Positions 1 through 17,859 of a stretch of DNA of 24,558 nucleotides are shown here, in pieces; positions within the stretch are counted from its first letter, which is position 1; each line of letters begins with the position of its first letter. The DNA is taken from IMG/VR virus record IMGVR_UViG_3300021961_000610, positions 1 through 24,558 of that record; one strand, written 5' to 3'. The position numbers were made by a program, and so were the translations under genes. The notes below the pieces were generated by a model. It was given only the letters and a program-made list of their open reading frames with translations. It was not told where the DNA came from and searched no databases. This DNA comes from a virus.

Positions 1-335
1 GAGGTAACCTAATTGCCATGATATGTTATGATGCCCAATCAGCAAATCAGAATAATTTATACTCCTCTACAACTGTTACTAACGGACAGTATTATCACGT
101 AGTGGCTACTTTTGATAGTGGCTATAATTGGAAAATCTACATAAACGGAGTTTTAGAAAATGAAACCACATTAACCGGTAAACCGTATCAAAACTCATCT
201 TCTATCTCTATAGGAAGAGGAGACAGTAGAACTATGAACGGCGAGCTTCCTATTGCAAAAATATACAACCGAACGCTCACAGCCTCAGAGGTCAAATCAA
301 ACTATAACGCCATCAAAGGCAGATTTAATATTTAG
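1..335 (+). CDS. LamG-like virion/tail-fibre protein, C-terminal part (5' end outside window)
   Basis: The reading frame is already open at base 3, so this is the C-terminal end (about 110 residues) of a gene starting before the window; an internal Met at base 18 is unlikely to be the true start. The visible part looks like the second half of a LamG/concanavalin A-like jelly roll: a GQYYHVVATFD strand, then IYINGVL, then SISIGRG, and a closing segment GELPIAKIYNRTLTASEV, the typical end of phage and bacterial LamG domains. The ending GRFNI matches the ending GRFNM of the next gene, so the two are paralogues. Family knowledge: such domains bind glycans or act as folding modules in fibres. Inference: a surface-binding virion protein. 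Six bases separate its stop from the next ATG. Confidence 0.8.
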   Translation, partial: GNLIAMICYDAQSANQNNLYSSTTVTNGQYYHVVATFDSGYNWKIYINGVLENETTLTGKPYQNSSSISIGRGDSRTMNGELPIAKIYNRTLTASEVKSNYNAIKGRFNI

Positions 336-341
336 TAAGTT

Positions 342-1547
342 ATGGCAGTAAGACACGGATACGGAAAGGTAGCAGGAGCAGATGCATTAACATTTGCATA
401 CGATACTGGGGATATTAGGAATAGTTACAAGGGGGAACCTACCACTAATTTAATTCCATCTGGAGTTGCGTTTTGCCATTCCACAGGACAAGGAGCCGCA
501 GCAACAGTAGAAGATGCACCAGAGAAAGGACCAGGATGGAAAAAAGTTACCATCACAGCTAGAGGTACTAACTTTAGAATTATACAGTGGACATACCTAT
601 CTATGACAGCAAATACTCTATACTGTCATTCTATTGTGTTTGATTGGGGTAATATGAGAGGTAAAAACTACTTTATTTACTTTGATGGCGACGGTACAGG
701 CACCAGAGCATACTACAGACCTGGAGATTACGTAAACACAGGAGGAACTAATATAGATTCATCTATGCCAGATGGTAAGTTTGCAGGAACTATAACTCAT
801 ACCGGTAACCATGCTCATGCATTCTTTATTGGTAATTACACACTTAATCAAAGCGGACTAAACGACTACTTCTACTATAAAGAGTATCAAGCAGAAGTTA
901 ATTCACATCCAACTCAATACACAGGAGGAACACGATCAGCCACACAAGCTTTATTAGATCTGACAGGAAATAGTGAAATTACATTAAATAGTGTGTCGTT
1001 TGATTCAAACGCACAAATGTTATTTGATGGCACAGACGATTCTATAGGTTACGCATATGTAGGTATTTCAAATTATTCACAACCATTTACTATGGAATGT
1101 GTATTCATAGTAGATCCTGCAGCAACTTGGGATAACGGGTATAGAAGTAATATATTTGGTATTGCGGGATCTTATGCTGGTATGTACGGACTTAATAAGC
1201 ACAGTGGTGATAGTGTAGGATTGTATGTAAGAGACGCATCTGGAGGCGGCGCTGCCGACGTAGGCGGTTTATCTAAAGGAGTGTATTACCACTTAGTTGG
1301 AACTTGGGATGGAACTGATGATATACGTATATATTTAAACGGTAGCCTACGTAATACAGCTACATCCGCAAAAAGCGGCGCTCCTGATACTACTTCTATC
1401 TGGCTTGGAGGAACACGAGCATACTCAGGAACAAGCGGACAAGTGTACCACGGTGAAATACCTGTTGCAAAATACTATAACCGAGCACTTACGGCCATAG
1501 AGGTAAGAAACAACTTTAATTTATACAAAGGCCGATTTAACATGTAA
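342..1547 (+). CDS. LamG-domain virion protein (probable tail fibre/adhesin)
   Basis: A 401-residue protein with a C-terminal LamG/concanavalin A-like domain at about residues 215-401. The recognisable pieces are QMLFDGTDDSI, PFTMECVFIVDP, GVYYHLVGTWDGTDDIRIYLNGSL and the closing GEIPVAKYYNRALTAIEV. The N-terminal 200 residues are rich in Gly, Tyr and Thr and look like a second beta-sandwich or carbohydrate-binding module, but I do not recognise a family. It is paralogous to the truncated gene before it: both end in KGRFN(I/M) after an aligned closing strand. The start at 342 (MAVRHGYGKV) is chosen because it follows the previous stop by six bases; there is no Shine-Dalgarno sequence. Inference: a host-surface-binding structural protein. 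An enzymatic role is not supported by any motif I can see. Confidence 0.8.
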   Translation: MAVRHGYGKVAGADALTFAYDTGDIRNSYKGEPTTNLIPSGVAFCHSTGQGAAATVEDAPEKGPGWKKVTITARGTNFRIIQWTYLSMTANTLYCHSIVFDWGNMRGKNYFIYFDGDGTGTRAYYRPGDYVNTGGTNIDSSMPDGKFAGTITHTGNHAHAFFIGNYTLNQSGLNDYFYYKEYQAEVNSHPTQYTGGTRSATQALLDLTGNSEITLNSVSFDSNAQMLFDGTDDSIGYAYVGISNYSQPFTMECVFIVDPAATWDNGYRSNIFGIAGSYAGMYGLNKHSGDSVGLYVRDASGGGAADVGGLSKGVYYHLVGTWDGTDDIRIYLNGSLRNTATSAKSGAPDTTSIWLGGTRAYSGTSGQVYHGEIPVAKYYNRALTAIEVRNNFNLYKGRFNM

Positions 1548-1549
1548 TC

Positions 1550-1559
1550 TATTTATATA
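1550..1559 (+). promoter_or_regulatory. Candidate late promoter motif TATTTATATA
   Basis: CTATTTATATAA lies between the stop at 1547 and the ATG at 1568. The same octamer recurs before several other structural genes in the window, always in this orientation. It is a candidate phage late promoter element, or another regulatory signal; its function is inferred from position only. Confidence 0.5.
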
Positions 1560-1567
1560 AAAAAGCT

Positions 1568-1909
1568 ATGAGCAGATTTCCTAACAGACGCTGGTTAGTT
1601 ATCCCAGCCACAGAAGTAGAGAACGTAGACTTTAATCAAGTTCTAGAATCTTCAGCAGATACTTTAAGATACTCTATAGACGGAAATGAAACTTTCGTTA
1701 AGTATGAAGTATCAGTATTAGAAGAGCCTTATTCATATACCTATACTGATCTTGAAACTAACGAAGAAGTAACTACTACGGTAGAAGCCGGAGTGTACGG
1801 AAGACCTTCTATCTATTCAGAAGCTTATACAGAATATAACCACGAAGAGATTCTTGCTTTACTTGCTACCGAAGCTTGGACAGGACCAATGGATCCAGAT
1901 TTAGAATAA
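1568..1909 (+). CDS. Hypothetical protein in tail-fibre region
   Basis: A 113-residue acidic protein that I do not recognise. It begins MSRFPNRRWLVIPATEVENV. A central stretch around residues 38-75 has alternating hydrophobic and polar residues (ETFVKYEVSVLEE, then SYTYTDLETNEEVTTTVEAG), as expected for beta strands. It has no signal peptide, membrane segment or cysteine. It sits between two lectin-fold genes, five bases before the next start, and has its own copy of the TATTTATA motif 18 bases upstream. Inference: a late-expressed virion accessory protein, perhaps linked to fibre attachment or assembly. No catalytic motif is visible. Confidence 0.75.
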   Translation: MSRFPNRRWLVIPATEVENVDFNQVLESSADTLRYSIDGNETFVKYEVSVLEEPYSYTYTDLETNEEVTTTVEAGVYGRPSIYSEAYTEYNHEEILALLATEAWTGPMDPDLE

Positions 1910-1913
1910 GATT

Positions 1914-3017
1914 ATGGCAGTACCAGGTTCAGGAGAGATATCATTAGGTAAGATTAGACAAGAGTTACAGGCAGCTAACTATACTAGCGGTCCGTATACT
2001 GCTGCTTCTACGTCTTTAGATTTAGCCGAGAACGGTACATACGCTACTATCAATACATGCTCTCCTTATTATCCGCTATCAGCCAATCCAGCTAATATGT
2101 CTGAGTGGTATGGATATGATCATGATGCACCGTGTCCATTTGCAACCGCTTCTTTCTATTTTGATGGAGGTGACGATGCAACCGATAAGCTTCAGACTAG
2201 AGACACCTTACAAGGGGATCCTTACAGTGACTTACAAGCAGATATTCAAGATAAATTTGTAATCTCAATGTGGGTAGCTCCTTGGAATATAGATTCGGCA
2301 GCCGCTGGTCACGCTGGATACCAAAGACTACATGGATTCTGGCGGATAAAAGATGATACAAACGGCTATATAGTATCTATAGGGTATGTACCTAATTACA
2401 GTTTCGGTAATGACAATTATATAGAATTTGTAATTTCAGCAGGAAGTGGGTCTACTAATCAAAGAAGTTGGACCGTCGCCTTAGATGATAACGGAGATAA
2501 TTACGGAGCAACCGGAATAAGTTCCAATGACGTGTGGAACTGGGATAACCCAGGACAATCTAATGCCAATAGGTTTGTACACCTGGTATTTCAATATGAC
2601 AGTACCCAATCAGCTAATGCTGATAAATTTAAAGTATATTGGAACGGAACCGCGTTAAAGAACATGAGCTATAACGCTACTGGAAACGGAGGACCATCCG
2701 GTATAGCTTATAACGGAGATCAGTATATGGTACTAGGTCAGCATCACTATGGCGGACTCACCAACGGTGCTCCCGGTATATGGTATGGATGGATAGGATG
2801 GTTCAGCTATAAAAATGGGTTTGCAGCATCATCTACAAATATTGCAACCCTGTACAACTCCGGTTCTCCGCCCGATCCTGATGATATAACACAGATAGGT
2901 CCAGATATGATACATTATCGATTTGGAAGTAATGCAAGTAGTCAAAATGATTATAATGGTTTTAACATAATACTAGATGTAACAACTGCGGACTGGGATA
3001 ATAATGTTTACCCATAA
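1914..3017 (+). CDS. Tail-fibre-like protein with LamG-type domain
   Basis: A 367-residue protein. The N-terminus VPGSGEISLGKIRQELQ resembles the short opening motif (roughly SG-ISL-I--E) found at the start of many phage tail-fibre and baseplate-attached proteins of T4-like marine phages; this is recalled family knowledge, not a search. From about residue 88 it looks like a concanavalin A-like/LamG domain: SFYFDGGDDATDKLQT, FVISMWVAPWN, FVHLVFQYDS, FKVYWNGTAL, and a late GPGIWYGWIGWFSYK strand. The end (PDDITQIGPDMIHYRFG) is typical of LamG proteins that describe total length or extent. Inference: an adhesin at the tail or baseplate. Its last 14 bases contain an ATG that could be read as the start of the next gene, though a later start is more likely. 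Confidence 0.78.
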   Translation: MAVPGSGEISLGKIRQELQAANYTSGPYTAASTSLDLAENGTYATINTCSPYYPLSANPANMSEWYGYDHDAPCPFATASFYFDGGDDATDKLQTRDTLQGDPYSDLQADIQDKFVISMWVAPWNIDSAAAGHAGYQRLHGFWRIKDDTNGYIVSIGYVPNYSFGNDNYIEFVISAGSGSTNQRSWTVALDDNGDNYGATGISSNDVWNWDNPGQSNANRFVHLVFQYDSTQSANADKFKVYWNGTALKNMSYNATGNGGPSGIAYNGDQYMVLGQHHYGGLTNGAPGIWYGWIGWFSYKNGFAASSTNIATLYNSGSPPDPDDITQIGPDMIHYRFGSNASSQNDYNGFNIILDVTTADWDNNVYP

Positions 3018-3033
3018 TTATAATAAAGAGACT

Positions 3034-3198
3034 ATGGAAGACAAAGGATTAGGAGATACTATCGCAAGAGCCACTCATGCTACCGGTCTAGATCGTTTTG
3101 CACAAAAGATCGCTGAAGCAAGAGGAAAGTCCGATTGCGGATGCAAGAAAAGACAAGAATATATCAACCAATTGATTCCATATAAAAAGAAAGACTAA
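3034..3198 (+). CDS. Small Cys-motif protein (DCGCKKRQE)
   Basis: A 54-residue protein if started at the ATG at 3034 (MEDKGLGDTIARATHATGL). An in-frame ATG at 3004 would add ten residues and overlap the preceding gene by 14 bases. I prefer 3034 because the added residues look unlike the rest and the preferred N-terminus begins a compact helix. The protein is basic and ends in a cysteine cluster, DCGCKKRQEYINQLIPY. I recall short phage proteins with this layout (GDT-, -ATG-, DCGC-KR---LN-LFP) in phages of Bacteroidota, but their function is unknown to me. The two closely spaced cysteines could bind metal or form a dimer site, which is inference. Its stop overlaps the next ATG by one base (TAATG). 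Confidence 0.7.
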   Translation: MEDKGLGDTIARATHATGLDRFAQKIAEARGKSDCGCKKRQEYINQLIPYKKKD

Positions 3199-3428
3199 TG
3201 GCAACAAAATACAGAGTTTACAAACAGCTCATCCCTGTACCTTTAAACACAGACGATCCTACATGGGCAAAACGCCAGATCTGGGTACAGAAACTTAACT
3301 CAGAAGACACTATTGATGAGTTTGATACCTTAGCAGAAGCTCAAGCTAAAAGAGATGAATTGACAGCTGCTGACGAGACTGGAAGAATCTACAAGGTAGA
3401 AGAAGTTGAAGTAGAAGTTGGAGAATAA
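3198..3428 (+). CDS. Hypothetical small acidic protein
   Basis: A 76-residue protein that I do not recognise. It begins MATKYRVYKQLIPVP and ends in a run of Glu-Val repeats (VEEVEVEVGE). The middle, DTIDEFDTLAEAQAKRDEL, looks like a strand followed by an amphipathic helix, similar to small phage proteins that restate a parameter field, but nothing assigns a function. It overlaps the stop of the upstream small gene by one base, so translation is probably coupled. A candidate late promoter follows it, which ends this small unit. Confidence 0.7.
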   Translation: MATKYRVYKQLIPVPLNTDDPTWAKRQIWVQKLNSEDTIDEFDTLAEAQAKRDELTAADETGRIYKVEEVEVEVGE

Positions 3429-3442
3429 ATCTTTTCTTCCTA

Positions 3443-3452
3443 TATTTATATA
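3443..3452 (+). promoter_or_regulatory. Candidate late promoter motif TATTTATATA
   Basis: The sequence TATATTTATATATAAC lies in the 55-base gap before the ATG at 3484, 41 bases upstream. It is an exact copy of the octamer found before the sheath, tube and other structural genes. Function is inferred from recurrence and position. Confidence 0.5.
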
Positions 3453-3483
3453 TAACTAACCGGTTAAATTAAAATAACGTTAC

Positions 3484-3771
3484 ATGGAAAACCAAAAGTT
3501 GACTCAAGAAGAGTTACAGCAGATCGCTGACCTTCAAAACAAAAATCGTGCTGTCGTAAGCGAGTTCGGCGAAATCGAGCTTATCAAGCTTAGTATCGAA
3601 GCACGTGTTGAAAATGCTAAGAAATTCTTAGCTGAACTTCGCGAAGCCGAGCAGACGTTCGGTAAAGAGCTTTCTGAAAAGTACGGTGATGGAACTGTAG
3701 ACTTACAATCTGGTGAGTTTGTTCCTGCTCCTGCTCAAGAGGAAGCTACTGAAGAGCCAGCTGCAGAATAA
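3484..3771 (+). CDS. Hypothetical coiled-coil protein
   Basis: A 95-residue acidic protein. Residues about 5-67 are predicted by eye to be helical and coiled-coil-like (LTQEELQQIADLQNKNRAVV, then ELIKLSIEARVENAKKFLAEL). The tail (about residues 80-95) is low complexity, Ala/Pro/Glu-rich (PAPAQEEATEEPAAE). The codon mix shifts here towards CGT/CGC for Arg and TTC for Phe, compared with the AGA-rich fibre genes upstream, which may mark higher expression. It has its own upstream motif and is followed by a strong terminator, so it looks like a single-gene transcription unit. Similar small helical proteins occur near the structural genes of marine T4-like phages, but I cannot name a function. Confidence 0.78.
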   Translation: MENQKLTQEELQQIADLQNKNRAVVSEFGEIELIKLSIEARVENAKKFLAELREAEQTFGKELSEKYGDGTVDLQSGEFVPAPAQEEATEEPAAE

Positions 3772-3798
3772 GCGCACAACGCACTCCAGGGAAGATTA

Positions 3799-3820
3799 AG
3801 AGGGTTTCGGCCCTCTTTTT
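3799..3820 (+). terminator. Rho-independent terminator
   Basis: The stem AGAGGG (3799-3804) pairs with CCCTCT (3811-3816) around the loop TTTCGG, followed by a T run to 3820. It lies 27 bases after the stop at 3771. The next candidate promoter motif starts at once after the T run. Confidence 0.88.
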
Positions 3821-3821
3821 C

Positions 3822-3831
3822 TATTTATATA
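3822..3831 (+). promoter_or_regulatory. Candidate late promoter motif TATTTATATA
   Basis: CTATTTATATAAAAA directly abuts the T run of the terminator ending at 3820 and lies 26 bases before the ATG at 3848. The placement between a terminator and a gene start is what a promoter would show. Confidence 0.6.
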
Positions 3832-3847
3832 AAAATCTCACATACAC

Positions 3848-4804
3848 ATGGCTTTAGAAGATAAAAAATCGTTATTACAGCCTAGCTCTGTACAATCCCA
3901 GCAGTATAGATTACAATACTCTGGTCTACAGGATAGAGCTAACGAAGCTGTTAAGTATACCGCTCCTGCTGCTAATACTCCTAGAGTATCTCAGTTTGTA
4001 GGCACAGTACCATCTGTAGCATTAGCAGCACCAACACCTCAACCTGTTGGATCTTCTACTATAGCTAAGAACTATCGAGCATCAGCTGCAGTATTAGACG
4101 GAGATACGTATCTTACTGCTTCTATTGGAAGTGATGTAGATCTTAATACGGTAACCAGCGGTTCATTAAGCTTAGTGTTTATGATTAAGCCGGATACAGT
4201 ACCTACAGCACAGAAGCAGTACCTATTCCATGCTTATACCGGATCATTTGCCAGCCACTCTTTAGAAGTAACATTAAATGGGTATAATCTAGAGATTAGA
4301 GGCACAAACGACGGTAAGTACTCAAGATACTACGCAACTATCCCTGCAACAGCCTGGGGTACTCAAGAAAACGGGTATACTATTGTTGAGATCGGTAAAA
4401 ATGCTCAAACAGCTGACAGACCATCAGTACCGTTAGGCTTTGCAAGATATTACGCTAAGGTAGGTAATACTTCTTATAGCTTAATCGCAAGAGGTAACGG
4501 AATAGTTACTTCTCATGACCTATCCCTAATAGACCACCTAAGCATCGGCGGTACAGCTGCAGTTGCTAACTCTAACTTCTCAGGATCGATTGCATTTGCA
4601 ATGATTAAAGGAGACACTCGCTTAACAGCCGACCAATACATCGATCTAAAAGACGGAAAGAAGTTAGTAGGTTCAATTATTCCACAAGTAAGAGCTTATA
4701 CTTTCGATAGTAACGGAGCTGTAGAAGATCCAGGTACATTAGCTGATGTTAACGTAACTTTAGGAGTAACTGGAAGCTATTCCATAACTACAGGATACTA
4801 TTAA
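3848..4804 (+). CDS. Virion protein with concanavalin A-like (LamG-type) domain
   Basis: A 318-residue protein. Residues 1-80 are Ala/Gln/Ser-rich and probably extended, serving as a linker or attachment segment. Residues about 83-275 look like a lectin-type beta sandwich: SAAVLDGDTYLTASIGSDVD, SLSLVFMIKPD, KQYLFHAYTG, HSLEVTLNGYNLEIRG, HLSIGGTAAVANSNFSGSIAF and a closing MIKGDTRLTADQYIDL, matching the usual end of LamG-like phage domains. No catalytic motif is seen. It is preceded by a terminator and a candidate late promoter, and the next gene (sheath) has its own promoter motif, so it may be a monocistronic late gene. Possible roles are a fibre, a baseplate-exposed adhesin or a capsid/tail decoration; the domain call is by pattern only. 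Confidence 0.72.
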   Translation: MALEDKKSLLQPSSVQSQQYRLQYSGLQDRANEAVKYTAPAANTPRVSQFVGTVPSVALAAPTPQPVGSSTIAKNYRASAAVLDGDTYLTASIGSDVDLNTVTSGSLSLVFMIKPDTVPTAQKQYLFHAYTGSFASHSLEVTLNGYNLEIRGTNDGKYSRYYATIPATAWGTQENGYTIVEIGKNAQTADRPSVPLGFARYYAKVGNTSYSLIARGNGIVTSHDLSLIDHLSIGGTAAVANSNFSGSIAFAMIKGDTRLTADQYIDLKDGKKLVGSIIPQVRAYTFDSNGAVEDPGTLADVNVTLGVTGSYSITTGYY

Positions 4805-4826
4805 TTGTTTTTGCGCTTCATTAACA

Positions 4827-4836
4827 TATTTATATA
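4827..4836 (+). promoter_or_regulatory. Candidate late promoter motif TATTTATATA
   Basis: CATATTTATATAAAG lies 35 bases before the tail sheath ATG at 4862. The sheath is one of the most abundant late proteins in any contractile-tail phage, which fits a strong late promoter here. Confidence 0.6.
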
Positions 4837-4861
4837 AAGAATAATATAACCCTTCATAAAG

Positions 4862-6595
4862 ATGGCAGAAAGAATTTTATCACCAGGTGTATTTTCAAGA
4901 GAAAATGACCTATCTTTCATCACCCCAGCTGCTGGCGAGATCTCTACGGCTTTAGTAGGACCTACAACTAAAGGTCCTGTTAATATTCCTACTGTAGTTA
5001 GATCTTTAGGCGAGTACCTAAATGTATTTGGCGGCACTTTCAAATCAGGTAGTGACTACTACAACCACTTTACTACAATCGCAGCTGAAAAGTACTTCGA
5101 ACAAGGAGGTTCTTCTCTCTTAGTTACTAGAGTATCTGATGATACTTTCTCTAGTGCTACTGCTACAGTATATAGTGCTTCTGCTGCATGGTTTACCTTA
5201 AAGACTCTAAGTCAAGGTGAGATCATGAACAACAGCGGTAGTGGTACATTAGCAGGAGCTGACAATGCTCTTGTTTCCGGTTCAGCCGATAACGTAAGAT
5301 GGGAAATTACTAACGTAGATGCAGCACAGGGTACTGTTTCTCTTGTTATCAGAAGAGGTGACGACAACGAAAAGAACAAAATCGTTCTAGAGTCTTATTC
5401 TAACCTTTCTTTAGATCCTAAATCTGCTAACTACATCGCCAAAGTAATCGGTGATCAGTATAAGACAGTTAGCGGTGTTGATGGAGCTGTAACAGTAAAC
5501 GGTGAGTATGCAAACTCTTCTAAATTCGTTTATGTAGATGCAGTAACATTCAAAACCCCGGACTACTTCGACAATACTGGAGCTGCTAAAGGAGCTTACT
5601 CTGCTTCATTTGAAGCGTTTGTAATCGGTAGCGGATCTGCTCACGGTACATTCGGTTCAGCAGAAGGAGTTTTATTCCAAGCCGGAGTTGCTGCAACATT
5701 TAATCAGAACATTGCTAGCGCAACAGACTCACAAGGTATCGATCCTTCTACTGCTTACGCTACAGCATTACTATCTCTTGCTAACAAAGACGAATATAAA
5801 TTTAACGTACTATTAACACCAGGTCTTACAAAAGATCTTAACTCTTCAGTAGTATCAAGCTTTATCAGCTTAGTAGAAGGAAGAGGAGATGCAATCTACG
5901 TTGTAGATGCTTATAAGTACGGAGGTTCAGTAGCCAATGCAGTATCTAGTGCTGCTGGTATGAATAGCTCTTATGCAGCTGCTTACTGGCCATGGGTTAA
6001 AGTATCTGACAACCAGTTAGGAAAGAATACATGGGCTCCAGCTTCTGCAGTAATCGGAGGTGTTTATGCCTTCACTGATAGAGTAGGTGCTGAATGGTTC
6101 GCTCCTGCAGGTCTATTAAGAGGTGGTATTCCAGGTGTAGTAACAGCTGAAAGAAAGCTTTCTCAATCAGACAGAGACACATTATACGGAGGTAAAGTTA
6201 ACCCACTTGCTACCTTCCCAGGTTCAGGTGTTGTAGCTTACGGTCAGAAGACATTACAGACTAAAGCTTCTGCATTAGACAGAGTAAACGTTCGTAGACT
6301 TCTTATCAACCTTAAGAACTTCATCGGTGATCAAGCTAACAACTTAGTATTCGAGCAGAACACAATCGCTACTCGTAACAGATTCTTAGCCGCCACTAAC
6401 CCATATCTTGAAACTGTAGTACAGCGTCAAGGACTTTACGCTTACAGAGTTGTAATGGATGACACCAACAACACTGCTGACGTTATCGATAGAAACCAAT
6501 TAGTAGGTCAGATCTTTATCCAACCAACTAAGACTGCGGAATTCATCGTACTTGACTTCGTTGTTCAGCCAACAGGTGCAACATTTGGAGCGTAA
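4862..6595 (+). CDS. Tail sheath protein (T4 gp18-like)
   Basis: The contractile outer tube of the tail; many copies polymerise around the inner tube and shorten on infection. The 577 residues are somewhat shorter than T4 gp18 (659). The N-terminus MAERILSPGVFSRENDLSFI and the following STALVGPTTKGPVNIPTVV are the classic sheath opening (SPGV...E.D, then GP...GP...). The C-terminal domain at about residues 465-577 is also typical: ASALDRVNVRRLLINLKNFI, FEQNTIATRNRF, LETVVQRQGLYAYRVVMDDT and FIQPTKTAEFIVLDFVVQP. The middle (about 90-300) is the variable, probably surface-exposed part. It is followed directly by the tube gene, as in T4. It lacks a Shine-Dalgarno sequence. Confidence 0.97.
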   Translation: MAERILSPGVFSRENDLSFITPAAGEISTALVGPTTKGPVNIPTVVRSLGEYLNVFGGTFKSGSDYYNHFTTIAAEKYFEQGGSSLLVTRVSDDTFSSATATVYSASAAWFTLKTLSQGEIMNNSGSGTLAGADNALVSGSADNVRWEITNVDAAQGTVSLVIRRGDDNEKNKIVLESYSNLSLDPKSANYIAKVIGDQYKTVSGVDGAVTVNGEYANSSKFVYVDAVTFKTPDYFDNTGAAKGAYSASFEAFVIGSGSAHGTFGSAEGVLFQAGVAATFNQNIASATDSQGIDPSTAYATALLSLANKDEYKFNVLLTPGLTKDLNSSVVSSFISLVEGRGDAIYVVDAYKYGGSVANAVSSAAGMNSSYAAAYWPWVKVSDNQLGKNTWAPASAVIGGVYAFTDRVGAEWFAPAGLLRGGIPGVVTAERKLSQSDRDTLYGGKVNPLATFPGSGVVAYGQKTLQTKASALDRVNVRRLLINLKNFIGDQANNLVFEQNTIATRNRFLAATNPYLETVVQRQGLYAYRVVMDDTNNTADVIDRNQLVGQIFIQPTKTAEFIVLDFVVQPTGATFGA

Positions 6596-6596
6596 C

Positions 6597-6604
6597 TATT
6601 TATA
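6597..6604 (+). promoter_or_regulatory. Candidate late promoter motif TATTTATA
   Basis: CTATTTATAATAAAG begins three bases after the sheath stop codon and lies 28 bases before the tube ATG at 6625. It would give the tube gene its own transcript. Confidence 0.55.
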
Positions 6605-6624
6605 ATAAAGTAAACTAAAGTAAC

Positions 6625-7110
6625 ATGCCAGTACTAGATCCAAACGAAATCATGTTTACCGCCTTCGAACCGAAGGTAACGAACAGATTTATCATGTACA
6701 TCGATGGAATTCCATCATATATGGTTAAGAGCGTAACTTCACCTTCTTTTACTGACGGTGTTATCAAGCTTGACCACATCAACACTTACAGAAAGATCCG
6801 CGGTAAGAGAGAATGGCAGAACATGACTCTCTCATTATACGATCCAATCACACCTTCTGGTGCACAGGCTGTAATGGAGTGGGCTCGTTTAGGATATGAA
6901 TCAGTAACTGGTAGAGCTGGATACTCTGACTTCTACAAGAAAGACGTAACTTTAAATATGCTAGGTCCTGTTGGAGATATCGTAGGAGAATGGATCGTTA
7001 AAGGTGCATTCGTACAATCTTCTAACTTCGGTACTTACAACTGGTCTACAGATGAAGCCATCTCAGTTGAACTAGTATTATCAATGGACTACTGTGTATT
7101 AAACTTCTAA
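6625..7110 (+). CDS. Tail tube protein (T4 gp19-like)
   Basis: The inner tail tube subunit, stacked in hexameric rings inside the sheath. Its 161 residues are almost the same length as T4 gp19 (163). Telling segments are the opening PNEIMFTAFEPKVTNRFIMY, the IPSYMVKSVTSPSF strand, the region IRGKREWQNMTLSLYDPITP and the ending ISVELVLSMDYCVLNF. These match the gp19 pattern of an N-terminal 'F-P---NRF---I-GI--Y-V' and a C-terminal beta strand with D(Y/F)C. Placement right after the sheath supports the call. It is followed by a strong terminator. Confidence 0.95.
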   Translation: MPVLDPNEIMFTAFEPKVTNRFIMYIDGIPSYMVKSVTSPSFTDGVIKLDHINTYRKIRGKREWQNMTLSLYDPITPSGAQAVMEWARLGYESVTGRAGYSDFYKKDVTLNMLGPVGDIVGEWIVKGAFVQSSNFGTYNWSTDEAISVELVLSMDYCVLNF

Positions 7111-7136
7111 TACCCCGCCTTGTCAACAAAGGAAAG

Positions 7137-7161
7137 CCCGGTCTTTATGGCCGGGTTTTTT
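7137..7161 (+). terminator. Rho-independent terminator
   Basis: CCCGGTC (7137-7143) pairs with GGCCGGG (7149-7155, one G-T wobble) around the loop TTTAT, followed by six Ts. It ends the sheath/tube unit 26 bases after the tube stop. Confidence 0.88.
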
Positions 7162-7170
7162 ATTTTCATA

Positions 7171-7180
7171 TATTTATATA
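7171..7180 (+). promoter_or_regulatory. Candidate late promoter motif TATTTATATA
   Basis: CATATATTTATATATAAAG begins about ten bases after the terminator T run and lies 27 bases before the ATG at 7198. This is the same terminator-then-motif arrangement as at 3799-3831. Confidence 0.6.
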
Positions 7181-7197
7181 TAAAGTAATACAGTTAT

Positions 7198-7938
7198 ATG
7201 GAATCAAAATTTAAGTTACCTACTGAAACGGTTGAGCTACCGTCAAAAGGCTTACTCTACCCAGAAGGGCACCCTTTATCCGCCGGTACAATTGAGATGA
7301 AATACATGACCGCACGGGAAGAAGACATCTTAACCAATCAGAATTATATTAGACAAGGCACTGTCATTGATAAGCTATTACAGTCTTTAATTGTAACAGA
7401 AGTACCTTATGACGAGATCTTGATTGGAGATAAGAATGCTATTATGGTAGCAGCTAGAATCTTATCTTACGGTAAAGACTATGATTTTGATCTAGGAAAC
7501 GGTAAGCAGACTATTGACCTTACAACCTTCAATAATAAAGAGATTCAAGAAGACTTATATAAGAGAGGTCAAAATGAATTCGAGTTCACTCTACCTCATA
7601 CAGACAATACTGTAACCTTTAAGCTTTTAACTCACGGTGATGAAACTAAGATCGAACAAGAGATTAAAGGCCTTCAGAAGATCAATAAAGATAATATTGC
7701 CGAAGCTACTACTCGATTGAAATATATTATCACATCTATCAACGGATCAAGAGAAAAGAAGGATGTTAGAGAGTTTGTTGACTACGGACTATTAGCTCGT
7801 GATGCTAGAGCATTAAGAGAATACTACACTAAAGTATCTCCAGATCTAGATATGACTTATACCTACACAGACTTAGACGGTGCAGAGAGGGAGGCTGCCC
7901 TTCCAATTACTGTTAGCTTTTTTTGGCCTGACGCCTGA
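7198..7938 (+). CDS. gp26-like baseplate/tail assembly protein, short (unshifted) product
   Basis: A 246-residue protein. The opening TVELPSKGLLYPEGHPLSAG and the following EMKYMTAREEDILTN are the hallmark of the T4 gp26-like baseplate family (recalled Pfam name T4_baseplate). A middle segment resembles a folded beta domain (FEFTLPHTDNTVTFKLLTHG), followed by helices. The zero-frame product ends SFFWPDA just after a run of seven Ts (7918-7924). A second open frame continues for 91 codons beyond that run with no ATG start of its own near the junction. Its position immediately before the tape measure is the position of the lambda G and GT tail chaperones. I therefore infer a short form (246 residues) and a frameshifted long form of about 333 residues. 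In T4, gp26 is linked to baseplate hub assembly. Confidence 0.85.
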   Translation: MESKFKLPTETVELPSKGLLYPEGHPLSAGTIEMKYMTAREEDILTNQNYIRQGTVIDKLLQSLIVTEVPYDEILIGDKNAIMVAARILSYGKDYDFDLGNGKQTIDLTTFNNKEIQEDLYKRGQNEFEFTLPHTDNTVTFKLLTHGDETKIEQEIKGLQKINKDNIAEATTRLKYIITSINGSREKKDVREFVDYGLLARDARALREYYTKVSPDLDMTYTYTDLDGAEREAALPITVSFFWPDA

Positions 7939-8200
7939 GTATAGAACTCTACTGTATCAACAGATACACGACATAGTCTTTCACGGTAAAGGAGGGTATG
8001 ATTGGCAGACGGTCTACAATATGCCAATATGGCTACGTAGATTCACCTTTCAATCAATCAGAGACTTCTACGAGAAAGAAGCAGAAGCACAAAAAGAAGC
8101 TATGGATAAAGCAACCGGAGTACAGCAAGCAGCACCAAGCAATACTGTACAGATTCCGGATGCAGTAAAAAAAGCGACATACACTACTAAAAAACAGTAG
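7880..8200 (+). CDS. Downstream frame of the gp26-like gene, probably expressed by programmed frameshift (gp51/GT-like)
   Basis: This frame opens at 7877 after a TAG at 7874-7876 and runs to 8200. The only start-like codon upstream of the overlap is GTG at 7880; the first ATG is about 48 codons in, inside what looks like a folded domain, so independent initiation is unlikely. The part after the T run begins GLTPEYRTLLYQQIHDIVFH and continues to GYDWQTVYNMPIWLRRF, then a charged helix and a low-complexity Lys/Thr tail. The VYNMPIWLRRF segment resembles small T4-like proteins (gp51-type hub assembly factors) and the T-domains of tail chaperones; this is pattern recall and moderately sure. If translated as a fusion it adds 91 residues to residues 1-242 of the upstream product. 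The tape measure starts 30 bases later. Confidence 0.7.
   Translation: MQRGRLPFQLLLAFFGLTPEYRTLLYQQIHDIVFHGKGGYDWQTVYNMPIWLRRFTFQSIRDFYEKEAEAQKEAMDKATGVQQAAPSNTVQIPDAVKKATYTTKKQ
7918..7924 (+). promoter_or_regulatory. Slippery T7 run, candidate +1 or -2 ribosomal frameshift site
   Basis: Zero-frame codons read AGC TTT TTT TGG. A P-site Phe tRNA on 7921-7923 can re-pair perfectly on TTT after slipping +1 (7922-7924) or -2 (7919-7921), and either move enters the frame that stays open to 8200. A -1 slip would not reach that frame. The zero-frame stop is 12 bases beyond the run (TGA at 7936). A homopolymer length error in the assembly is the main alternative. Confidence 0.6.
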
Positions 8201-8205
8201 TAATC

Positions 8206-8213
8206 TATTTATT
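8206..8213 (+). promoter_or_regulatory. Candidate late promoter motif, variant TATTTATT
   Basis: CTATTTATTAGTATAG starts five bases after the stop at 8200 and lies 24 bases before the tape measure ATG. It differs from the other copies by one base at the last position. Confidence 0.45.
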
Positions 8214-8229
8214 AGTATAGCACTACTGT

Positions 8230-10518
8230 ATGGCAGAAGATAATTTAAACTTAGAAGGTAATATTGAGAGAGCCGAGGAACTGAAAATGTCCTTTGGCTC
8301 TATTAATAATGCTGTTAATGAACTTAACAAAGCATTAAGACGTACCGGTGAAGATACTGCTGAAGTAAGTAGAGTGTTTGCTCAACTAAAAACCTCTGCA
8401 GATAACGTTGCTAAAGTACAACGAAGTATTCAAGAGAGTTCTGCTGGTACTGCGAATGCTATTAAGGAACAAAAAGCTAACCAGGATAAAGCTACTCAGT
8501 TAGCAAAACAAGCTGGTGAGTTTTATACTCAAGCTCAGACAGCAACCGGTAAAACAAAAGATAATCTTCTACAGCAATCAGAAAACCTCTATAGAGCTTC
8601 AGGAGAAGCTAAAGTACTTTCTGAATTATACAAAGAAATTGCAATACAGGCAGCTAAACTAGACTCCTCTACAAAGTTCTTTAGAACAGCAAGCACATTT
8701 ATATCCAGTATACCTGGATTTAAAGCATTCGCTGAACCTTTCCAACAAGCAGAAAAAGCAGCCAGAGAAGCTGTAGCTAAGACAGGTAGTACTATATCAG
8801 GCTTTGGAGCAGGTTTAAAAGCCCTAGGTAAAGGTTTATTCGATATGCTATCTCTTCCTGCTTTAATTGCAGGTACATTACAGCTTTCAAAGAATACTAA
8901 GGACTTAAGTACTAACTTGGGTATTAGCATGAGTGCTGCAAGAGATATTGAAAGAAGTTTCGATAGGTTCGCACTAAGTACAGAAGATAGCAGAGTAACT
9001 ACTCAGAAACTATTACAGGCACAGAATACATTATCCGGTCAATTAGGTTTAGCAGTACAGTTTAGTGGGGAGACTCTACAGAACTTTATCATGCTTACCG
9101 AGTATATGGGAGTAAGCACAGAAGCTGCTGCTAAACTCACCATGCTTTCGGAAGGTCTTGGAGCTAACTCTAGAGATTTTACAAACAATATAGCAGAATC
9201 TGTAACACAAGCAGGTCTTGCTCTAGGAGTAAACATTCCGCTGAAAGACGCTTACGAAACTATTGGTAAGATGTCTTCAACTACGCTAGTTAATCTACAG
9301 AGAAACCCAGAAGCATTAGCTAGAGCAGTAGCAGAAGCAAAAGCATTAGGAGCTACCTTTGAACAGTTAAGCAGTGTTTCAAGTAGCTTACTTAATTTTG
9401 AGACCTCTATCGAGAATGAGCTTCAAGCTGAACTTCTAGTAGGACGTCAGCTTAATCTAGAAAAAGCTAGAGCAGCAGCACTGACTGGTGATCAAGCAAG
9501 CTTAGCAAAAGAACTGAGAACTCAGATCGGCTCGATTAACGAGTTCGAAAAGATGAACGTAATTCAAAGAGAATCTCTAGCACAGGCCTTTGGATTAAAC
9601 GTTGAGCAGTTGAGTGAGATGCTTCTAAAGCAAGAAGCATTAAATGCTAATGCTAAATCTGCCAGAGACCTAACAACAGAGCAGATCAGTCAAGCTAGAG
9701 CGTTGGCTAAAGAGAAGAACATAGGCTTTGGAGATGCACTATCTCAGATTCAAGAAGAAAGAGATGCTGCTAAAGCTTTTGAAGATGCATCTAAAAAACT
9801 ACTAGGTACATTCCAGAGATTATTTATCGAGCTATCTCCTGTACTGGAAAAAATTGCTAATATTGCTGGTGATCTAGCTGCTAATCCATTCTTCAAAGGC
9901 CTTACTCTTGTAGGAGCTGGAACAATGGCTTTATCCTCTATTGCTAAATCTCTAAACCTTATACCTCAAAAGGTGTTTGTTGTAAATCAGAGCCCGATGG
10001 GAGGTGCCGGAGGCGGCCAAGGAGGGTTAGGAGGCATGATGAGAACCTTACCAGGCGGTAGCCGATACGCAGCAGCTATGAGAATGAATCAAGCTGGTAA
10101 ATTCGGTATGAGTAGAGCTATGGGAATGAAAGGTGTAGGTCTAGGAGCAATAGCAGGCATTGCAGGAATGGGAGTATCAGCTCTAGCCGATAACTACGAA
10201 GAAGGTAGTGCTGCTAATGTAGGATTAGGTACAGCAGGAGGTGCTCTACAAGGCGCTGGCACAGGTGCGATGATTGGATCTATTATTCCAGGTGTCGGAA
10301 CATTAGCTGGCGCTGGTATTGGAGCTGCAATCGGAGGTCTTACAGCTTATCTTAATAGAAAAGATAGAGAAGAAGAGAAAGAGAAGAATGCTGGAGGAGA
10401 AAAGTACGACAAGATGATTCAACTACTTGAAGAGCAGGCTAAGAAAGACACTAAGATATTTATGGATGCCAATCAGGTTGGTATTTCAATGGCTTTAGGT
10501 AACCCAAGATTAAATTAA
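8230..10518 (+). CDS. Tail tape measure protein (T4 gp29 role)
   Basis: Sets tail length and lies inside the tube until DNA ejection. The 762 residues are longer than T4 gp29 (590). Residues 1-170 are a long helical, coiled-coil-like region rich in Ala, Gln, Lys and Glu (ELNKALRRTGEDTAEVSRVF). Hydrophobic segments follow at about 194-214 (GLKALGKGLFDMLSLPALIA), about 552-575 (FFKGLTLVGAGTMALSSIAK), and two Gly/Ala-rich stretches at about 632-656 and 662-708 (GAMIGSIIPGVGTLAGAGIG), as in other tape measures that insert into the host membrane. The segment ASKKLLGTFQRLFIELSPVL is also typical. It has no peptidase or lysozyme domain that I can see. It follows the frameshifted chaperone-like gene, the usual gene order for tape measures. 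Confidence 0.9.
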   Translation: MAEDNLNLEGNIERAEELKMSFGSINNAVNELNKALRRTGEDTAEVSRVFAQLKTSADNVAKVQRSIQESSAGTANAIKEQKANQDKATQLAKQAGEFYTQAQTATGKTKDNLLQQSENLYRASGEAKVLSELYKEIAIQAAKLDSSTKFFRTASTFISSIPGFKAFAEPFQQAEKAAREAVAKTGSTISGFGAGLKALGKGLFDMLSLPALIAGTLQLSKNTKDLSTNLGISMSAARDIERSFDRFALSTEDSRVTTQKLLQAQNTLSGQLGLAVQFSGETLQNFIMLTEYMGVSTEAAAKLTMLSEGLGANSRDFTNNIAESVTQAGLALGVNIPLKDAYETIGKMSSTTLVNLQRNPEALARAVAEAKALGATFEQLSSVSSSLLNFETSIENELQAELLVGRQLNLEKARAAALTGDQASLAKELRTQIGSINEFEKMNVIQRESLAQAFGLNVEQLSEMLLKQEALNANAKSARDLTTEQISQARALAKEKNIGFGDALSQIQEERDAAKAFEDASKKLLGTFQRLFIELSPVLEKIANIAGDLAANPFFKGLTLVGAGTMALSSIAKSLNLIPQKVFVVNQSPMGGAGGGQGGLGGMMRTLPGGSRYAAAMRMNQAGKFGMSRAMGMKGVGLGAIAGIAGMGVSALADNYEEGSAANVGLGTAGGALQGAGTGAMIGSIIPGVGTLAGAGIGAAIGGLTAYLNRKDREEEKEKNAGGEKYDKMIQLLEEQAKKDTKIFMDANQVGISMALGNPRLN

Positions 10519-10519
10519 G

Positions 10520-11935
10520 ATGCCTTTATTAGATTTAAAAACTAAATTAAAAGATCTAAAGTTCGGTACTTTAGCACCTTATATCCAAAAAGATATAAAC
10601 AATCCGGGTGTACCTTCCTCTAATCAGATTCAAGCCAGAGCCGAAGATCTAGAACGTCTTACTAAAATGCTAGCCGATAGACCGGGAGTAGAATTTGCTA
10701 CTAAACAAGTAGTGCTTGAAGCCAGTAAAGCAGATACTTTAATAGACATCTTTAGTAAGAATACTGTCGTAAACCCGGCCTTAAGAATCGGTAACATACT
10801 TCTACAGATTCCTGTTAATAGAACAGGTACGCATTTCTCTGCATTAGGAGGAGGACCTCTCACTAATTACTATACTAGAAATAATAATGCTGCTAGTGAA
10901 GCACTTGCCGGTAAGACAATACGTATTGAGAAACGTTCTCAATTACGTACTAAAATAAGTGAGTTAGGTAAGCCTGAGAGATTTAACACAGTATTAACTA
11001 GAACTCAAGCTAGTGCTCAAGCTAAAAACAATAAAAAGGTTGTTCTTGGAGTTAAGCCCGACTTAGTAGATACACGGTCAACTGATTCTGTTAACCTACT
11101 AGACGTAGGAGGAACTCTTAAAGACGATTTACTGATGGGAGTAACCTTCAACGTATTTGGAAAAGCAACTACTACGATGAATACCTTTAGAGGCTTTGTT
11201 CAGAACATCTCAGATAACTATACAGGTAACTGGCAATCAGTTAACTACGTAGGTAGAATGGAACAATTCTTTACATATACAGGGTTTACTCGAACGTTTA
11301 ACTTTCAATTAGTTATTCCAATATTTTCTGCTGCCGAGCAACCAAGAGTCTTTAATAAAATTAACTCTCTAGTATCCTATACTGCTCCTACATATGTGGA
11401 TAACTTACCTCAAGGCACTATTGTCTATATGACAATGGGTAACTATCTACGTACTGCCGGAATAATAAACTCAGTATCTATTACTGTCGCCAACGATGTA
11501 CCATGGTCTTACAGTCAGAAGAGTGCATACGGAGATAATAAAGCAAGGCTACTGCCTCAAGTTATTACCGCTAATATCCAATTTACTCCAATCCACAGCA
11601 CAGTACCTCAGCTCTTTACATCCCCATTCAGCAAAGCTACACCAGACGGACAGTACATCAATCAAGGAAGTAAGGTAGTTGACAGAGATTTTGCAAGAGA
11701 AGAGACATTAGCTACTCTAGGAGATATGGAAGCTCTACAGTTAGATGAAATTGATCTTCTTCAAGGCGAATTAGTGCCGTTAATTGATAAATTAACTTCT
11801 GCTATTTCAACTGAAGCAGAAGATTTCGCCGCTCTATTTGCTAACAGGTCAAGCAGATTTGGTGGTTTAACGCCGTCAATTGAAGTAGGAGAAGGATTCT
11901 TTAGTAATATTGAAGATCAAGACACTTACTTATGA
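10520..11935 (+). CDS. Probable baseplate/tail-end structural protein
   Basis: A 471-residue protein starting two bases after the tape measure stop. I do not recognise a named family. It begins MPLLDLKTKLKDLKFGTLAP, then a helical stretch (about 40-85) and a long beta-rich middle with segments such as LLMGVTFNVFGKATTTMNTF and FTYTGFTRTFNFQLVIPIF. The position after the tape measure and before a LysM-like and two hub-like proteins matches the tail-tube initiator or baseplate position (the role of T4 gp48/gp54 or a distal tail protein). This role is inferred from gene order. Its stop overlaps the next start by four bases (ATGA), so the two are probably translated together. Confidence 0.75.
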   Translation: MPLLDLKTKLKDLKFGTLAPYIQKDINNPGVPSSNQIQARAEDLERLTKMLADRPGVEFATKQVVLEASKADTLIDIFSKNTVVNPALRIGNILLQIPVNRTGTHFSALGGGPLTNYYTRNNNAASEALAGKTIRIEKRSQLRTKISELGKPERFNTVLTRTQASAQAKNNKKVVLGVKPDLVDTRSTDSVNLLDVGGTLKDDLLMGVTFNVFGKATTTMNTFRGFVQNISDNYTGNWQSVNYVGRMEQFFTYTGFTRTFNFQLVIPIFSAAEQPRVFNKINSLVSYTAPTYVDNLPQGTIVYMTMGNYLRTAGIINSVSITVANDVPWSYSQKSAYGDNKARLLPQVITANIQFTPIHSTVPQLFTSPFSKATPDGQYINQGSKVVDRDFAREETLATLGDMEALQLDEIDLLQGELVPLIDKLTSAISTEAEDFAALFANRSSRFGGLTPSIEVGEGFFSNIEDQDTYL

Positions 11936-12231
11936 AAAGATACGAAGACATACCGGTACGTAACGTAGGAGATAAGCCTTACAGAGGAGCAACTATCTAT
12001 CCAGAAGTACCAGCTTCAGAGCAAGACTACTATGTAGTTGCCTCTGTAGGCGATAGATTTGATATTTTATCTAAGCAATTTTACGGCGATCAACAGTACT
12101 GGTGGGTAATTGCTTCTGCTAATCCCAAGGTTAGAAGAGATACTATGTACATTGAACCAGGGTTACAGTTGCGTATTCCACCTCTAAGAGCTATATTAAA
12201 CAGTTACGAACAGTTAAATGCTTCTAGATGA
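11932..12231 (+). CDS. LysM-like tail/baseplate protein (gp53- or gpX-like)
   Basis: A 99-residue protein. Residues about 31-83 match a LysM-type fold as found in small tail proteins: YYVVASVGDRFDILSKQFYG, then QQYWWVIASANP and a final GLQLRIPPL. The pattern 'Y-V----D-ld-is---YG---yWW-i---N' is shared by T4 gp53-like wedge proteins and P2 gpX-like proteins. In this setting it is a structural baseplate or hub adaptor rather than a free peptidoglycan binder. Both ends overlap neighbours by four bases (ATGA), which points to translational coupling across three genes. Confidence 0.85.
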   Translation: MKRYEDIPVRNVGDKPYRGATIYPEVPASEQDYYVVASVGDRFDILSKQFYGDQQYWWVIASANPKVRRDTMYIEPGLQLRIPPLRAILNSYEQLNASR

Positions 12232-13466
12232 ATTATCTTGTAGGTACACCTATAGCAGGATCCGTTGCTAAAAGCATCGAAGATCGTCAAAACATCTTTG
12301 AAGCTAACGATGGTTCTTTACGTCAAGCTTATATACAATACCAGTCCCTAGCACCTTGGGTAAGACTAAGCTCAGCCGTTAAAATTAAAGCAGGTACTAA
12401 GACAGCTGAAAAGTTTGGTACCGGTATTGAACTAGCTAAGAATAACGTGCTCTTTACTCTCTTTAATAAAGAGACAGATGGACTTCCAGGCTATGAAAGA
12501 ACACAGCTCGGATACAGACCTGCTCCCGGTATACAGGACATGCAGATTCATTCCCATAATAGATTCGGATCTTTAAGAACAGCTGTAGTAAAGTACCAAT
12601 GCTGGAGTAGAGAGCAACTGGATGTATTAGAACTCCTTTATATGAGACCCGGGTTTAACGTGTTCTTAGAATGGGGATGGTCAGGCTACTTAGCTAACGA
12701 TAACGGCAACTATAACGTTGATACGTTGGTAGAACCTATTGATTTTACAGCCTACAATACCAGAGAAGCTGCACAAGCAGCTATGGTTACCAAACGCAAT
12801 AAGTATACGTACCATTATGATGGTATAGCAGGAATAGTAAAAAACTTTACCTGGTCTTTAAGAAACGACGGCGGTTATGACTGCTCTACATATATCGTAA
12901 CAGCAGGTGATGTAGCAGAGTCCTTAAAAATTAACTTCTATGTCTCTAATGCGGACATTAAAAAAGCAATAACAAAAGCAACTGATGCTGTAGATACCGC
13001 TGCTCTCGCAGTAACTTCTAAAACAGTTACAGTTCAAGGGATAGACAAACCTGTAACACTCACAGACATTCAAGCAAAAGCTAAGATTACCCCGAAATTC
13101 CCCGACGTTAACGAAATACGGTATAAAAGCGCTATCGCACCACCAGACTTTAATAGTGCAGCAGATCCTGAAGCCGGTCAAACATTATCTAAACTTTACG
13201 AAGAATATAAAGCAAGAGTGAATGACGCGTTAAAAGTTACTAGACAGACAAGCATTGTTAAAGACCGGAAAGACAAGGGCCTCTACATAAACCTAAAAGA
13301 AGGTACATTTGGCTTTGAAGGAAGCTACTACCAGCTTAACAATGTCAACGGTCTTATTGATCAAGCAGAAAAGTTCGTACAGGATAATCCTGCAGTTGAA
13401 ATCTTAGTCCGACCAACCCGAATAAATGAAATGGTAGTAATGCGATTTAAAGATTATACAATCTAA
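12228..13466 (+). CDS. Probable baseplate hub/structural protein
   Basis: A 412-residue protein following the LysM-like gene with an ATGA overlap. I recognise no named domain with confidence. Segments that stand out are APGIQDMQIHSHNRFGSLRT (about 95-115), a conserved-looking LLYMRPGFNVFLEWGWSGYL (about 137-156), and GIAGIVKNFTWSLRNDGGYD (about 200-220). The C-terminus ends EILVRPTRINEMVVMRFKDY. The mix of aromatic beta segments and the gene order (tape measure, tail end protein, LysM, this, then the muramidase-like protein) fits a hub or hub-adjacent component analogous in place to T4 gp27 or P2 gpD. That role is inferred. It could also be one half of a hub split over two genes with the next one. 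Confidence 0.72.
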   Translation: MNYLVGTPIAGSVAKSIEDRQNIFEANDGSLRQAYIQYQSLAPWVRLSSAVKIKAGTKTAEKFGTGIELAKNNVLFTLFNKETDGLPGYERTQLGYRPAPGIQDMQIHSHNRFGSLRTAVVKYQCWSREQLDVLELLYMRPGFNVFLEWGWSGYLANDNGNYNVDTLVEPIDFTAYNTREAAQAAMVTKRNKYTYHYDGIAGIVKNFTWSLRNDGGYDCSTYIVTAGDVAESLKINFYVSNADIKKAITKATDAVDTAALAVTSKTVTVQGIDKPVTLTDIQAKAKITPKFPDVNEIRYKSAIAPPDFNSAADPEAGQTLSKLYEEYKARVNDALKVTRQTSIVKDRKDKGLYINLKEGTFGFEGSYYQLNNVNGLIDQAEKFVQDNPAVEILVRPTRINEMVVMRFKDYTI

Positions 13467-13472
13467 TTAGGT

Positions 13473-15371: not shown

Positions 15372-15372
15372 T

Positions 15373-15963: not shown

Positions 15964-15973
15964 TAAATGAGTT

Positions 15974-17314: not shown

Positions 17315-17321
17315 TAAATTC

Positions 17322-17329
17322 TATTTATA
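17322..17329 (+). promoter_or_regulatory. TATTTATA motif directly before a start codon
   Basis: CTATTTATA ends on the base before the ATG at 17330. It is identical to the candidate late promoter octamer, but too close to that start for a normal leader. A transcript from it would be leaderless or would use the in-frame ATG at 17339. It may be chance. Confidence 0.3.
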
Positions 17330-17782
17330 ATGGAAGTAATGGAACCACAATTTGGTTACGACTTTGTCACAGATACGACAACTTGGAACGACGATATGAG
17401 TAATAAACTATTCTGTACATTCACCACAGAAGAGAATATAGATAACTTAGTAGAGACAATCAAAGGTAAGTACGATATAATGTACAATAAGATCTTTGTT
17501 CTCCATGCTAAAAGTAATGACGAGTACGTATGCACGTATAACGTTGACTTTGGGAATGTCGCTAACTTCCTAGATAATACTATTCTTGTACATCGCAAGA
17601 AAGAATCTAATACGCTTTATACAATCAACGCTCTTAATACACTCATTAAGGAGCTCAACGGCGGAGTAGCTGATTCAAGCTACCGGGTAGACTGGAATGA
17701 CTACCGTAATTGTATTCTACTCACTCGAGGAAACGAACTTAAGCGTATCAACACCCGCCTTCATAAAATTATTGAGCTCTAA
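17330..17782 (+). CDS. Hypothetical protein in replication cassette
   Basis: A 150-residue protein that I do not recognise by name. Starts are possible at 17330 (MEVMEPQFGY) or 17339 (MEPQFGY); the second is attractive because the first abuts a TATTTATA motif. The C-terminal half, TLYTINALNTLIKELNGGVA and then YRVDWNDYRNCILLTRG, looks like a well-folded alpha/beta domain, and I recall similar hypothetical proteins near gp32 or polymerase genes in marine T4-like phages. One plausible reading is a small replication or mRNA-binding regulator, but no motif shows it. It sits 15 bases after the polymerase stop and 77 bases before gp32. Confidence 0.75.
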   Translation: MEVMEPQFGYDFVTDTTTWNDDMSNKLFCTFTTEENIDNLVETIKGKYDIMYNKIFVLHAKSNDEYVCTYNVDFGNVANFLDNTILVHRKKESNTLYTINALNTLIKELNGGVADSSYRVDWNDYRNCILLTRGNELKRINTRLHKIIEL

Positions 17783-17791
17783 GTTGGAGCT

Positions 17792-17836
17792 ATGAAAACT
17801 TTTTCGTATATTGTATACGAAAACATATTCTATTAA
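17792..17836 (+). CDS. Possible 14-codon leader ORF upstream of gp32
   Basis: ATG at 17792 opens a short frame encoding MKTFSYIVYENIFY and ending with TAA at 17834-17836. It encloses the whole 10-bp inverted repeat of the gp32 leader, and its stop lies within the first of two direct repeats. The opening MKTF is a common phage protein start. It may be a leader peptide or a chance frame; no independent evidence of translation. Confidence 0.25.
   Translation: MKTFSYIVYENIFY
17801..17823 (+). promoter_or_regulatory. gp32 leader hairpin (perfect 10-bp inverted repeat)
   Basis: TTTTCGTATA (17801-17810) and TATACGAAAA (17814-17823) are exact reverse complements around a three-base loop TTG. The structure sits 36 bases before the gp32 ATG. 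It is followed by a direct repeat rather than a T run, so it is more like an operator or mRNA structure than a terminator. T4 gene 32 mRNA is known to be autoregulated through a structured leader followed by unstructured repeats; the parallel is inferred. Confidence 0.6.
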
Positions 17837-17854: not shown

Positions 17855-17859
17855 GTAGT

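Follow-up and report, generated by a model that had tools for sequence, protein, structure and literature searches.

An oriented octamer before virion genes as a probable late promoter of immuto-like, T4-like phages

The locus and its octamers

The stretch considered here, hereafter the window, is the entire 24558-base IMG/VR record IMGVR_UViG_3300021961_000610, and the element in question is an octamer, TATTTATA, which recurs in front of its virion genes. All 26 open reading frames called in the window lie on the + strand. Profile comparisons match their products to the tail sheath, tail tube and baseplate hub families, as well as to a gp32-like single-stranded DNA-binding protein (SSB; gene 17860-18672, PF08804, E 1.2e-9), a RecA/KaiC-type ATPase and the ribonucleotide reductase small chain. 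The closest named relatives by sheath are four Flavobacterium phage immuto records (56-58% identity); the tail tubes of the window and immuto are 71% identical, and the gene order from the sheath to the ribonucleotide reductase is similar in the two, with the immuto record beginning within this stretch. Since the nearest named relative is a Flavobacterium phage of similar gene order, the host of the window phage is likely to be a member of the Bacteroidota.

The window holds seven exact copies of TATTTATA, all intergenic and on the + (sense) strand, as against none on the - strand (Table 1). A preliminary description of this DNA had reported six of them together with the variant TATTTATT at 8206, all in one orientation, confined to gaps, 18-41 nt before starts and in two cases directly behind a terminator. 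Each of these observations was reproduced, although the list was incomplete, as the copy at 17322-17329 had been overlooked. Counted over the entire window, the copies exceed expectation only modestly (7 versus 2.86 expected; at least 7 in 3 of 100 dinucleotide shuffles). However, the gaps make up only 675 of the 24558 bases and yet contain all seven copies, a count far above chance when gaps alone are considered (shuffle mean 0.28, maximum 3; 7 reached in 0 of 2000). A generic sigma-70 promoter scan of positions 1-18000 of the window remained at chance level (48 found, 47.8 expected).

Table 1. Octamers, terminator-like hairpins and the host-like promoter candidate of the window
Coordinates	Strand	Feature	Context
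1549..1557	+	octamer cTATTTATA, late-promoter-like	octamer start 18 nt before ATG 1568
3442..3450	+	octamer aTATTTATA	41 nt before ATG 3484
3798..3817	+	terminator-like hairpin and T run	directly before octamer at 3822
3821..3829	+	octamer cTATTTATA	26 nt before ATG 3848
4826..4834	+	octamer aTATTTATA	35 nt before tail sheath gene 4862-6595
6596..6604	+	octamer cTATTTATA	28 nt before tail tube gene 6625-7110
7131..7161	+	terminator-like hairpin	directly before octamer at 7171
7170..7178	+	octamer aTATTTATA	27 nt before baseplate-hub-like gene 7198-7938
8205..8213	+	variant cTATTTATT (TATTTATT at 8206)	24 nt before gene 8230-10518
17321..17329	+	octamer cTATTTATA	abuts ATG 17330; immuto arrangement identical at 1337/1346
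17783..17814	+	host-like (early-type) promoter candidate GTTG-N20-TATATTGT	before gp32-like SSB gene 17860-18672

The gene behind the variant site, 8230-10518, occupies the position of the immuto tape-measure gene, where immuto has an exact TATTTATA. The last octamer touches the annotated ATG both in the window (17322-17330) and in immuto (1337-1346), so that either the start codon would lie further down or the transcript would serve later genes. A further TATTTATT (22168-22175), 76 nt ahead of the gene for ribonucleotide reductase, is flanked by a helicase-like gene and a GC-rich hairpin. The product of gene 342-1547, at the left end of the window, has a C-terminal domain that resembles virion proteins (phrog_8510, E 7.5e-15).

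Conservation and anatomy of the site

An IMG/VR scan with the tube protein yielded 584 loci, of which the best 80 were kept (686,747 bases, 53,818 of them in gaps); as many of these are closely related, the counts below do not represent independent events. TATTTATA is the commonest 8-mer in their gaps, with 304 sense and 7 antisense copies there and 30 and 49, respectively, in genes, and a sense gap copy is present in all 80 loci. An exact copy lies at most 45 nt before the tail-tube start in 72 of the 79 testable loci (in the remaining one the contig end is too close), and TATTTATT stands before the tube gene in six of the seven that lack it; the T4 octamer TATAAATA was found within the same 45 nt in 0 of 79. 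Five gene boundaries carry a site in both the window and immuto: those ahead of the sheath, tube and hub genes, that of the long gene which follows the hub (TATTTATT in the window) and that of the gene behind the DNA-polymerase-like one. Three genomes, immuto and the IMG/VR records G002 and G003, are the largest of 11 records (160-177 kb) and, judged from this size, near-complete; in the latter two the extended pattern is distributed over the strands as 0:34 and 15:1, overlapping matches counted. A scan of bacterial genomes with the sheath profile recovered one contig of a metagenome-assembled genome, with 4 sense and 1 antisense octamer copies.

The 306 sites from the window and these relatives were reduced to 253 unique ones for a logo. 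The base before the octamer is A in 62%, C in 36%, G in 1% and T in 1% of them, and on its 3' side come two A/T positions followed by an A-rich run, whereas no column from -10 to -45 exceeds 0.25 bit, and no -35-type element is seen. Most ATGs lie 20-40 nt from the octamer start, within a full range of 8 to >90 nt; a second cluster at 92-95 nt in the relatives (27 sites in one bin) perhaps stems from a single recurrent gene whose start was missed or from a small intervening gene. Terminator-like sites in the relatives are followed by the motif within the next 40 nt in 51 of 95 cases, and 52 of the 304 motif sites come after a terminator (random gap positions: mean 19.4, maximum 36). This frequent placement just past a terminator suggests that transcription restarts at the octamer.

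In view of the logo we also reject the reading of the octamer as a "mirrored" T4 late promoter with a palindrome in most copies, which the preliminary description had raised as a question. The exact palindrome TTTATATAAA occurs in only 3 of the 7 window copies and is not conserved beyond them, because the base after the octamer is A in 43% and T in 47% of the unique sites. The mirror is misleading and not needed: with TAT at one end and its reverse complement ATA at the other, TATAAATA and its own reverse complement differ only at the two central bases. It is simpler to keep the same polarity and to posit a change of AA to TT at -10/-9.

Two promoter classes and the alternatives

Bacteroidota promoters have -33 and -7 elements, the latter with the consensus TAnnTTTG. 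The preliminary description had noted a partial match of the octamer to this -7 element; we reject it for TATTTATA, but it fits a second class of sites. In immuto, the nearest relative in culture, the host-like form TATTTAG[AG]TA occurs 24 times on the + strand and 0 times on the - strand, with 20 copies in gaps, and 18 of these 20 have GTTG exactly 26 nt upstream. In contrast, only 3 of the 26 TATTTATA gap sites have GTTG anywhere 18-32 nt upstream, i.e. the -33-type partner is mostly absent. The two classes also differ in location: within the virion blocks, whose borders we set at 81.5-101 kb and 117.6-160.4 kb, lie 16 of the 26 TATTTATA gap sites versus 1 of the 24 host-like sites (Fisher 1.5e-5), and these blocks account for 2153 of the 9916 immuto gap bases (binomial 1.3e-5 for 16 of 26). 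Antisense copies of TATTTATA in immuto number 15, with 7 in gaps, 4 of which overlap a sense copy. In the window, the host-like class is clearly represented once, ahead of the SSB gene; separately, at 3417-3450, GTTG stands exactly 26 nt upstream of TATATTTATATA, one window site that fits both classes.

Could the octamer nevertheless be a variant -7 element read by the host sigma-A, that is, a housekeeping promoter? The TAnnT common to TATTTATA and the -7 element, the core TATTTA shared with the host-like immuto sites and the GTTG upstream of the site at 3443 all speak for this. However, the contrast in GTTG partners and the flat upstream logo speak against it, as do unrelated phages of Bacteroidota: sense TATTTATA upstream of genes numbers 0 in crAss001, 1 in phiST (first 50 kb of each) and 0 in 11b. 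Cellulophaga phage phiST instead shows an oriented TATCTTTA before its genes, which resembles the -7 element. Furthermore, Microcystis phage Mel-JY01, whose host is not of the Bacteroidota, has in 50 kb 5 sense and 0 antisense copies of TATTTATA upstream of genes, one of them before the tube gene. We accordingly regard a host promoter as improbable. As for other phages, the first 50 kb of Rhodothermus phage RM378 have no gene preceded by TATTTATA, and 50 kb of T4, with genes on both strands, gave 9 TATAAATA and 6 TATTTATA upstream of genes.

An element that works in the mRNA leader, in processing, stability or translation, would account for the AU-rich composition of the motif and its constant position close before a start, but it is at odds with the above-chance placement directly after terminators, where readthrough leader would be scarce, with the wide range of octamer-to-ATG spacings and with the lack of conservation of the half-palindrome; we consider it quite unlikely. 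Finally, a binding site near gene starts for a phage regulator, replication or packaging protein, to which a short, exact and intergenic motif might point, is very unlikely given the strict 304:7 orientation, which is typical of promoters and unusual for such sites.

A candidate sigma factor

The T4 gp55 profile phrog_234 matches three of the 11 records, in each case the same gene of about 232 residues (E 0.008-0.013), which in immuto is KNV73_gp118, annotated as hypothetical. The preliminary description had proposed a search for a gp55-like sigma factor, and this candidate is present in the three near-complete genomes. It has 583 relatives in IMG/VR, of which the best 80 were kept; among named phages the family occurs in the four immuto records, the uncultured phage LR756508 and Mel-JY01. 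A structure model was built from an alignment of 46 of these best 80 relatives (predicted local distance difference test, pLDDT, 77.8; predicted template modeling score 0.55). Residues 1-115 of the model resemble sigma factors with the sigma region 2 fold in VIA-align: T4 gp55 (7d7c_F) comes second (Z 9.5, 126 aligned, root-mean-square deviation, rmsd, 6.7), E. coli sigmaE scores Z 9.2 (91 aligned, rmsd 2.7), and the list also includes RPSH, RPSB and RPSD, which we take to be Bacillus sigma factors. Foldseek alone found no match to the model at E <= 0.001, a PDB sequence search with the family profile returned chance-level matches only, and phrog_12791 had no match in the 11 records. The C-terminal helical domain of about 95 residues, folded alone, reaches pLDDT 86 and has no clear match among PDB structures (best Z 6.3); a sigma-4-like or gp33-like domain is conceivable. 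Taken together, the gp118 family is probably a sigma factor, as the modeled fold suggests. Directly downstream of its gene, all three near-complete genomes code for a conserved protein of 115-125 residues, which is possibly a co-factor.

The octamer also accompanies this gene in the wider family. In the 26 closest sigma-gene loci it is found upstream of genes in 38 sense and 3 antisense instances, and in 54 others in 75 and 27 (one count per upstream stretch); in those 54, CTATTTAT is more strictly oriented, with 91 sense and 5 antisense.

In T4 gp55, deep pockets accommodate A-12 (with Y97) and A-8 (with T99), and a shallow one, to which N13 and H95 belong, accommodates A-9 (PMC7892883). If the T4 register applies, TATTTATA, in which only the central two bases of TAT-AA-ATA are altered, retains the adenines at -12 and -8 but has lost those at -9 and -10. 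In the 46-row alignment, with residue equivalences that rest on a weak HHalign alignment (probability 8%), the Y97 equivalent is an invariant Y (46 of 46), that of F86 is likewise invariant, that of H95 is F or Y, and that of N13 is K, Q, S or T. As cyanophage gp55s also have F at position 95, this position by itself does not explain the change of octamer.

Testing for the helper proteins of T4 late transcription gave no match to gp45 (phrog_223) or gp33 (phrog_254) in immuto, G002, G003 and Mel-JY01. The clamp loader gp44 (phrog_168) was not found in immuto; G002 and G003 show only chance-level matches (E 0.13; 0.008 and 0.016, spanning 38-61 positions), while Mel-JY01 has a strong match (6e-77). 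All three profiles detect T4 and syn9; PF02916 and PF00712 were dropped as gp45 tests, PF02916 having missed the annotated syn9 clamp, and phrog_223 was used in their place. Unless a strongly diverged clamp or that of the host is used, the clamp coupling of T4 late transcription probably does not apply here.

Interpretation

We propose that (M)TATTTATA with its A-rich downstream DNA is a -10-only late promoter, without a -33/-35 partner, of the Immutovirus-like clade of T4-like phages, most likely read by the gp55-like sigma factor of the gp118 family, and assign this reading a probability of about 0.8. Such a phage-encoded sigma would direct the host RNA polymerase to octamers some 20-40 nt before virion genes, often just past a terminator, where transcription would restart, while the early and replication genes would be served by host-like GTTG-N20-TATATTTA promoters. 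The earlier suggestion of a late promoter with a diverged gp55-like sigma is thus supported by orientation, position, recurrence in 80 loci, a separate host-like class and a family with a sigma fold; that the octamer is a promoter, that it acts late and that this sigma reads it in the T4 register is what we infer.

Several observations weigh against this proposal. First, the sequence support for a sigma factor is weak: the phrog_234 E-values given above are per genome, hmmscan with this profile gives E 0.5 and 0.056 for two of the candidates with the third unlisted, HHalign against nine gp55s gives E 0.0041 and a probability of 8%, and Pfam Sigma70_r2 stays below its cut-off on the candidate. 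Helical bundles can likewise reach a Z of about 9 through a common arrangement, and the equivalent of T99 in the -8 pocket is G or Q although A-8 is retained. Second, the candidate gene is not in the window record and is present in 2 of 39 records searched, the majority of which are fragments. Third, 10 of the 26 immuto gap copies fall beyond the virion blocks as drawn, the extended pattern in Mel-JY01 is unoriented genome-wide (1:3), and the huge phage LR756508 has a 40% identical homologue of the candidate and no TATTTATA before genes in the 50 kb examined.

More tentatively, and with somewhat less than even odds, phages devoid of clamp, loader and gp33 might have kept gp55-type late transcription by equipping the sigma with a C-terminal domain of its own and altering the octamer, which would uncouple late transcription from the clamp, its activator in T4. 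A literature search that left most subscription journals outside its reach found no phage late promoter with TATTTATA: this sequence came up together with late promoters only in cytomegalovirus and vaccinia and together with phages only in unrelated contexts, no promoter work on immuto and no mention of Mel-JY01 were found, and phage, late promoter, sigma factor and Flavobacterium were not found combined. If our proposal holds, gp55-type late transcription would extend to a large group of phages, most of them uncultured (>580 contigs per marker), and TATTTATA would be an annotation key to their late operons. The change of AA to TT would also provide a natural specificity change for mapping base choice by a minimal sigma, and the dispensability of the clamp for T4-style late transcription would become testable.

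Comparison with known systems

Among known promoters, the -33/-7 type of the Bacteroidota resembles the host-like class of immuto and differs from the late motif, which is without an upstream element. The T4 late promoter is TATAAATA (PMC2984593), located at -13 to -6 (PMC2988020). It shares with the sites reported here an 8-bp -10-only element, no -35 conservation, AT-rich DNA downstream and an association with late genes; it differs in its central AA, here TT, and in that A or C is favored just before the octamer here. The cyanophages S-PM2 and Syn9 have the late promoter NATAAATA (PMC2984593), which is alike in role and anatomy but keeps the AAATA that is absent from TATTTATA. At the protein level, the candidate shares with T4 gp55 (7D7C) the sigma-region-2 fold in its N-terminal half, with invariant equivalents of F86 and Y97, and departs from it in its length, in the extra C-terminal helical domain and in the equivalents of N13, H95 and T99. 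Moreover, the gp55-gp33-gp45 system has its helpers encoded in T4, whereas no gp45, gp33 or gp44 was detected beside the candidate in the three near-complete genomes. Thus, the octamer probably represents a familiar type of late promoter in altered form, which would dispense with the recognized helpers of T4 and be read by a diverged sigma factor of its own.

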